Shown here piece after piece: positions 37,801 through 49,598 of a stretch of 64,000 nt of DNA. The position numbers and the translations under genes were made by a program. The stretch's first letter is position 1; each line of letters starts with the position of its first letter. The stretch covers positions 2,197,633-2,261,632 of the forward strand of contig OY811981.1 of NCBI GenBank assembly GCA_963681505.1, read 5' to 3'. The DNA comes from Eunapius fragilis. Its lineage: Eukaryota; Porifera; Demospongiae; Spongillida; Spongillidae. Under the pieces are notes generated by a model. The model saw nothing but the letters and a program-made list of their open reading frames with translations. It did no database searches and was not told the origin of the DNA.

Positions 37801-40800
37801 CACACATACACACATACACACATACACACATACACACATACACACATACACACATACACACATACACACATACACACATACACACATACACACATACACA
37901 CATACACACATACACACATACACACATACACACATACACACATACACACATACACACATACACACATACACACATACACACACATATACATGAACACAAC
38001 ATAGTTACAATGCAGGATGTTGTACACACAGGGTGTGGACACGTCTACACTCATGCTCCCTGAAGTAGTGCTCTGCATGCTTACAAATGTACAGGGAAGA
38101 CCGCCACATATGTTATGCAGACATATTCTGCTGTAAAAGTAGGGCCTATTCACATTCTAAATAATGCCTTTTGTACGCACCACACAGCTGCTACATACAC
38201 CTTACCTTAATTGTACTAATGACAGTACTGAAGCCCAATTTTGTTGTCAGTGTGTATCCATGATAAATGCATATTTCTTCCCCTCCCATTCTCACAGCTA
38301 AGGGAGGGTGGGGAGGAGGGGTTAAAACATTGGCAGAAGCAGGAGAAAAAGGCTATAGAGAAGAAGGATGAAGAGAACTGCACTATGTTTGGCCGTATGT
38401 ATTCTCAGAACACAGGGCTGCAAGCCATTTTAGAATTGCACAGCGAAAAGGAGGGGAAAGGTGGGAGGGGAGAGGTGGGAGGGGAGAGGTGGGAGGGGAG
38501 AGGTGGGATGGGAGAGGTGGGAGGGGAGAGGTGGGAGGGGAGAGGTGGGAGGGGAGAGGTGGGAGGGAGAGGTGGGAGGGAGAGGTGGGAGGGAGGGGTG
38601 GGAGGGGAGAGGTGGGAGGGGAGAGGTGGGAGGGAGGGGTGGGAGGGGAGAGGTGGGAGGGAGAGGTGGGAGGGAGAGGTGGGAGGGAGAGGTGGGAGGG
38701 AAAGTGGGAGGGAGATGTGGGAAGGGAGAGGTGGGAGGAGAGGTGGGAGGGGAGGGGCACACCAGTGGTGTCGTGTAATCACAACTTCATTAACAGTTTG
38801 CTTATCCTGGAGCTACATGTAGCTACACCTTACTATCATCCCAGCAGTCAATCTCCACACATCGACAGCCTAGGAGCAGGGCACGTATGTAAGCCTCACA
38901 GCTGGAACTTCCCTTTAGCTGGTCCTCTTCAAGGTAAGTGTTGTGGCTTGAATTGATGAAGTAGTGGGACAGAGGCTGGTCCATGTCCTATGAGCATCAG
39001 GACAGCAGAGAGATATCATGGGGGGAAAGTGTATTAGCCTTGGGTAGTATGGATAGGGCAGGAAAATAAAGCAAAGTCCGTGGATATTATCATATCAGGG
39101 TTTTGGTTAAGGCATAATTAATTTCATTATTGATTAAATCGGACAATTGATAGGACAAATGCCCCCTTGTGCATAGGAAATTGTTGTGGCATGGAGAGGA
39201 TGAAAACCAAAGGAAGAGATGGAACAGAAATGCTGTGTGTGTGTGTGTATGTGGTGTGTGTGTGTGTGTGTGTGTGACATACTTGTACCGTTTCTGTTTC
39301 CATTGGTTCAGCATTGCAATTGCTTCTTAAAATACTGTAGAAAGGGTCTGCAATAAAAATGGCACCCAAGTAGTTTATCCTTTCACCTCAAAAATCCCGC
39401 AAAAGATAACAAAGGTGTTTTCATGGCTGAAGTATATTTATGTGGGTTGTCCTTTGCCACATATTTTTTGAATGACCGGTGTTGTTGGCAGTCATGTTGG
39501 TGTACCAGTTGTTTGAGTTTGTCATGGTTACAGTCGTTTGGCTGCCACTGCAATGAAACAGCATGCAATCCCATCTTCAAAAAATCCATTCCCAAAAGAT
39601 GTGTGGATCTCATACTTAATTATCATGCAATTATTCTATTTTAAGATATAGGCATTAAGAAATTAGTCACAAGTAGTCAGTTAAATTGGCAAATTTGTTG
39701 CAAAAATAAATTTCTTAAAGTACCAAGATAATGTGCCACTGAAGCATATTACTGTTAACTGAAATATGTTTACATTACTGCTTCCCTGTGCGTCATTAGA
39801 CAACCACTCACATTACAATACACCTGTGTGGCTGTATAATCAATATACCAGCAGCTTCAACATACCAAACATTTTTCAACAAGGAAGTTCTTGAGTTCAT
39901 CTATTTGTAGTCCAAGGTCATTATCGCCCCTAGCATAGTGTTTGAACAATTCATGGAGCTGCAAAGGAGAACAAAATACATTGCAAGTGTGGAGTAGTTA
40001 AGGGGACAGTGCAAGTGTGGAGTAGTTAAGGGGACAGTGCAAGTGTGGAGTAGTTAAGGGACAGTGCAAGTGTGGAGTAGTTAAGGGAACAGTGCAAGTG
40101 TGGAGTAGTTAAGGGGACAGTGCAAGTGTGGAGTAGTTAAGGGGACAGTGCAAGTGTGGAGTAGTTAAGGGGACAGTCATATCACACACACATCACATCA
40201 TATCTTACCCTTCCTCTCTCACACATTAAATTGAAGAGGAGAATGAAGCCATCCATACGTAGGGCACTACCATTGGTGTTGATGACATTAGAGCTGTACT
40301 GATACAGGTGGGCTTGCTGGGTGGGTGGGGCCATATGGTCATGCAGAAGGAGGAAAATTTTTTGTTAAAAACGCACTGTAATGAGCTCTTTGGCTTCATG
40401 TGGTTCACAGAAGGGGTTAATCTTGAGCAGTAACGACTGGGCTATTTTCTCTGGCAGTTCATCGTCCAAGCTTTTGGTGTTCCACACATACTTCAACCAG
40501 CTACACTTAAATTGAGGAAGTGTGCTATACATGTTCAATAACAATAATTATGAGAGGCATAGGGCTGATATGGATACAGGTTGAAGGAGTCTTTGTCAGA
40601 ATTGTTTTGTTCCAATTGTGAACGACGGGAACTAATATTTTTTAACTAAAAAAATATCACAGAAGGGTGCATAGTGAGAAAGGGCACATAGTAATTGGTG
40701 AGGGTGGAGAAGGTGCGAGGGAGTGGATGATTGTGGGGGGGTTGAGGGTCGGAAGCGGGAAATGGGAACACAGGAAGATGGCAAAGGAAGGGTGGAGGTG

Positions 40801-48213: not shown

Positions 48214-49598
48214 TTCGTACCGCTGAATGCAGAAGTAAAAACCCGATGAAGTTTATGTTTTGTTTACAACATGAAACAAAAAGCAAAACTATATGCCAAG
48301 AATCAGAAAGCACTTGAGCATTATATATGTACACAACTTATGCTCTATTACGTCAACACGGATGTGGTTCTCAGAAATGGTACGTGATCATGGTAATGCA
48401 CTTATCAATGCCACCCGGTACCCCCCCCCCCCCCCCCCCCCCCCCCCCCCACCCCCGTACGGGCAAGGGTCGGGGTTTGACATTGCGTCATATCAAACTA
48501 TACTGCGGTATGCTGTCAAATCCTCCCTATCTAAGGGGTCGGGGTTTGACCATAGGTTTTGATGTATAGTTTTAATTGCTCTGTTTTATTCAAGCCAGGT
48601 TTTTATGCGCGAGCACGGGCATACAAACCGCGGAAGAAGCTAAGCACGAGTCCGTGAATTGCATTTTGTATGTGAGGCGGCCAAAAATAGACCAGGCGAA
48701 TGAAGATCGCACTCATCAATCGGTAGCTGCATGCACGTAGCAGGGCGGAATGATGATCATGCATATGACTAGAAGCTGACGTCCCAGGTATATAGTTTAT
48801 GCATGTACATATAGTCTTAATTCCAGCTCCTTTATTTATTTATATACACTTATCAAAATTTTATGCTGATATACAACATATATATGGAAATTTTCAAAAA
48901 AGAACTGATGAAATATACACACACAAAAAGACAATATTCACATACAACAGTGAGTGCAGATATAGGTTTCAGATGTTGGTACATCAATAAGACCTTCACA
49001 TGAGGCGCAGTACCACATATCACGCTACCCAAAAGTCAGACTCATTATCATCGTATACTCCAGCACACCACAAGTATTGCAGGGATGCAGGTCCTCCATT
49101 GCTGCATGGAACAGCCACTGTAGGGAAAGAAAAGAAAAAGCACACATGTAACGTTTTAGAGCATGTATGCACCCTTATACCAAGACATTTTGATGTTTAT
49201 CAGTATGTGGTCTCACGTATTTAGATAGATTAACCAATATCTACCAGTTGTTTGGTAGATAATTCCGGCATGGGTAAACTAAAAGGACTATCACTATAGC
49301 CGAGATGTCGATGTAGAATTTGCATGAATATTATATTAGGGCTGGGAGAGTTCGTGATCCACACAATACAGCCACATGTACATGGAAATGTGCATGCATG
49401 CTTAACGCCGTGATATGTATAAATACGAACTCACCCACCGCGGCTGTGGTCTTGTAGAATCCGAGGGCCCCCCTGCAGCATTAAACATATGGGTGATACG
49501 TAATCTATACAGCTGACTATTTATTTTTTAACTCGCTCACTTTGCGCACTGGTATTTATACTTGCAAAGTACTCCTGTCGGGTATATCTCTCCCCTGG

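Follow-up and report, generated by a model that had tools for sequence, protein, structure and literature searches.

Genes and features around the assembly gap

The window, by which we mean the whole 64,000-nucleotide stretch of the freshwater sponge Eunapius fragilis analysed here (positions 2,197,633 to 2,261,632 of contig OY811981.1, below called the scaffold, whose own coordinates carry the prefix C11), contains a phosphoinositide-specific phospholipase C (PLC) gene on the minus strand. The following features were located in it.

36051-38352, minus strand: remainder of the PLC X box (model positions 53-77 and 68-142) plus the Y box (model positions 42-113), located in the unique sequence left of the repeat
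38450-38754, no strand: 14-bp minisatellite, about 100 bp outside the right contig's starting point
38826-38987, minus strand: PLC X-box exon, running without interruption through the outer edge of the left repeat copy (Pfam PI-PLC-X positions 1-51)
38856-43800, no strand: left repeat copy, which closes the left contig and differs from the right copy by 8 indel events and 0 substitutions; its last base abuts the gap
43801-44000, no strand: assembly gap of exactly 200 N, the only N run in the window
44001-48935, no strand: right repeat copy, which opens the right contig; its first base abuts the gap
44001-44132, minus strand: right-copy counterpart of the X-box exon at 38826-38987, truncated by the gap (PI-PLC-X positions 1-43)
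47029-47214, minus strand: PH-type PLC exon in the right copy, with its left-copy counterpart at 41885-42070 (PF00169, E 5e-05, 24.2 bits)

The first 51 residues of the X-box exon at 38826-38987 align to PLC delta-1 without a gap, and the remainder of the X box, together with the Y box, has a single local copy, which lies in the left flank. The score of the PH-type exon falls slightly below the curated Pfam cut-off of 25.1 bits, and the exon shares approximately 70% identity with part of a PLC paralogue located elsewhere on the scaffold. Four further stretches similar to the scaffold's PLC paralogues sit inside the repeat and hence are present twice. When four open stretches of the left flank were searched for the C2 domain of PLC, no Pfam family was returned at E up to 1.

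Several other elements were identified in the window. Exons of an ABC transporter, with ATP-binding and membrane-domain matches, lie in the right unique flank at 52976-55143 on the minus strand. Positions 1-1437 form a tandem array whose self-matches step by approximately 21-22 bp, and 28286-29291 and 52472-53474 constitute an inverted pair that is 95.8% identical over about 1 kb, with another related copy in the right flank of the window.

The two copies differ by indels only

Self-BLAST of the window and a global alignment both recovered the 4.9 kb direct repeat that the original prediction had described on either side of the gap. In the global alignment, 38856-43800 and 44001-48935 are the same sequence, sharing 4934 identical columns with 8 indel events, while BLAST reports 99.757% identity over 4946 columns, with 0 mismatches, 8 gap openings and 12 gap bases. 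The expectation of almost no substitutions between the copies therefore held in full, at 0 substitutions against 8 indels. The indels had been placed correctly to within a few bases in a list that was short by one (43777/48911), and the end of the right copy, put at 48945, lies ten bases earlier, at 48935. The window had also been judged too long by about 5.1 kb, and the surplus indeed amounts to approximately 5.14 kb, gap included. At seven of the eight indels the right copy is the shorter one, and a run of C measures 35 bases in the left copy and 30 in the right. A MAFFT alignment with changed gap cost yielded 11 apparent substitutions at 43760-43776, but these stand in for a pair of one-base indels that offset each other at a distance of 21 bp, and the BLAST and global alignments were preferred.

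Across 164 kb of scaffold comprising the window and its surroundings, no other direct repeat of at least 99% identity exceeds 510 bp, and the one of that length lies within a tandem array, which excludes a chance origin for a 4.9 kb pair. Both copies sit flush against the gap, in that the last base of the left copy is the last before the gap and the first base of the right copy is the first after it, and the outer edges of the two copies continue into differing sequence. Such flush geometry most likely reflects an overlap between contig ends that a scaffolder would have placed in order and left unmerged.

Indels in the tail of the left contig

Of the eight indels, seven fall in the final 900 bp of the left copy, whose first 900 bp contain none. 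The 900-bp cut was picked post hoc, with the data already seen, and in the window's pair the crowded stretch coincides with a dispersed repeat. Two further features describe this region.

43249-43800, no strand: tail of the left contig, in the dispersed repeat, with private errors (five single-base insertions and one single-base deletion relative to ten relatives)
48393-50183, no strand: dispersed repeat where the left contig ended

Genome match rows for the dispersed repeat start at about 48393 and others run past 48935, and its end was placed from terminal inverted repeats, as inverted arms of about 59 bp at 48392-48450 and 50125-50183 suggest its extent. Counted in right-copy coordinates from a start at about 48393, the left contig ends 552 bp into it. 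The dispersed repeat carries long C or G runs and has many related match rows genome-wide.

As all seven tail indels lie inside this dispersed repeat, its relatives elsewhere can show which of the two copies deviates. We compared the ten relatives for which DNA was obtained, out of 58 further match rows, at the six sites with single-base indels (the seventh tail indel being the C-run difference), and found that 58 of the 60 site-by-relative comparisons, which share ancestry and so are not independent, sided with the right copy, with one tie, one too weak to call and none siding with the left. Measured against these relatives, the last 545 bp of the left contig hold private errors. Together with the lack of substitutions, this points away from alleles and towards faulty consensus at the end of a contig.

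The sole indel outside the tail (40310/45455) leaves one reading frame open across the left copy and broken in the right. The scaffold's PLC paralogues align only from about this indel onward, in a frame that is open in either copy, and the stretches at the indel gave no match to a solved structure at E up to 1.

Other gaps of the scaffold

Elsewhere on the scaffold, PLC X- and Y-box matches occur as identical-scoring pairs 14,653 bases apart. The region of these pairs contains a second 200-N gap (C11:1166507-1166706), flanked flush by 1152054-1166506 and 1166707-1181153. This overlap of 14.45 kb has 14,441 identical columns and differs by 2 substitutions plus 11 indel events. Of these 13 differences, nine cluster within the final 900 bp of the left copy, and its first 900 bp are free of them. 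The tail of this second overlap is nearly unique genome-wide, having besides the two copies only 5 short partial matches in a genome of 218,937,333 bases in 24 contigs, and the crowding of differences there is thus not due to a dispersed repeat. The run of PLC X- and Y-box matches at C11:1162468-1196914 suggests three PLC genes plus the falsely duplicated one.

At a third 200-N gap (C11:2147803-2148002) we found no overlap in the stretches compared, namely the first 1030 bases after it and 170 before. Only about 290 of the former match elsewhere, as dispersed repeat, and without a copy just upstream of the gap among the best 40 of 2373 candidates; the latter match only themselves genome-wide and gave repeat-like partial matches in a local scan. 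Overlap was thus observed at two of the three gaps examined, a proportion that gives no frequency estimate since one of the two was found via its duplicated gene. Among protein kinase matches (130 rows inspected by eye, from the best 125 of 1043 candidates), no direct same-score pair within 30 kb was seen.

Origin of the repeat

We consider it very probable that the repeat is an assembly artefact, in which overlapping contig ends of one locus both entered the scaffold, one after the other. On this reading the left contig's final 4945 bp and the right contig's initial 4935 bp are the same sequence, and the scaffolder would have ordered the two contigs with a 200-N placeholder while leaving their overlap unmerged. 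Dispersed repeats and minisatellites are usual stopping places for assemblers; the left contig probably stopped on meeting the dispersed repeat, and the right one near the minisatellite. The left tail presumably rests on few reads and is unpolished, and the true locus would hold a single copy with a single PLC gene. Flush geometry, the lack of any substitution, the gap-cut exon and the second gap of like kind all support the original prediction that one locus had been assembled twice. They also lend weight to its suggestion of a false second PLC 5' half, as the X-box exon is intact only where it crosses the left copy's outer edge, its right-copy counterpart being cut by the gap. The exon arrangement supports reading the assembly as one PLC gene that includes PH, X and Y portions plus one false 5' half. 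Points that weigh against the artefact reading are the lack of overlap at the third gap in the stretches compared, the post hoc choice of the 900-bp cut, the coincidence of the crowded stretch with a dispersed repeat in the window's pair, and the indel at 40310/45455, which could be assigned to neither copy.

The contig ends might instead derive from the two haplotypes of a diploid, with the indels representing alleles, which would still amount to a false duplication. There are eight difference events between the copies that alleles could supply, and the two substitutions and two dinucleotide indels outside the tail of the second overlap could be allelic. However, the window's pair has no substitution in 4934 columns, an outcome whose probability is 0.085 at 0.05% heterozygosity and 0.007 at 0.1%, so that only very low heterozygosity would accommodate it; moreover, differences crowd at the end of the left contig in both pairs, and six of those in the window are private to the left copy. 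We therefore regard this explanation as improbable. Both noisy reads and two haplotypes had been put forward originally, and it is the former that is favoured, the relatives matching the right copy at six sites and never the left, whereas the two-haplotype variant appears disfavoured by the sequence comparisons.

Still less credible, and in our judgement very improbable, is a genuine tandem duplication so recent that no substitution has yet arisen, whose second PLC would be truncated within the X box. The assembly as written does contain two copies, and their near identity alone would suit a very recent event. Yet a real duplication requires the gap to have landed by coincidence exactly on the copy-to-copy junction, with no other base on either side, and the same to have happened again at the second gap, while the private single-base indels of the left copy lie at a contig end. 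We rejected a real tandem duplication on the basis of geometry, exon structure and the recurrence of the pattern at the second gap, and retain the unmerged overlap of contig ends as the preferred explanation.

Relation to published assembly errors and consequences for annotation

Homotype false duplications are described as "overlapping sequences at contig boundaries" (PMC8081667, Nature 2021). In keeping with the passages of that paper that treat this class, the window holds a locus twice at a contig boundary, in copies that differ in consensus quality. The pair is flush with, and separated by, an assembly gap; it shows none of the variants expected of haplotypes across its 4934 substitution-free columns; and the difference in consensus quality is seen indirectly, through private single-base errors in the left tail relative to the ten relatives. 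The same passages also make use of read coverage and k-mer copy number; the present comparison draws on the assembled sequence.

In the accounts that these sources give of heterotype false duplication, or heterozygous contig overlap (PMC8081667, PMC9516828, PMC7203741), a pair likewise lies on one scaffold with a gap between its members and can yield false gene copies. Unlike the heterotype as there portrayed, the window's pair is without the expected haplotype substitutions, and no haplotype-specific variants were found, six of its eight indels being private to one contig tail. Gaps between duplicated pairs are named as a main sign of false duplication, and such errors as a cause of false gene gains, in PMC9516828 (Genome Biol 2022); purge_dups is presented as handling the haplotype form (PMC7203741). 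On the features compared, namely geometry, variants and consensus quality, the repeat fits the homotype class, a known class of assembly error without biological novelty.

The significance of the repeat is for annotation only, as it leaves a false partial phospholipase C gene in the window. A further PLC gene of the scaffold has X- and Y-box exons doubled by the second overlap, and with the false half in the window a PLC gene count would be inflated. The annotation of the window merits correction, and the remaining gaps of the assembly merit screening for unmerged contig overlaps.
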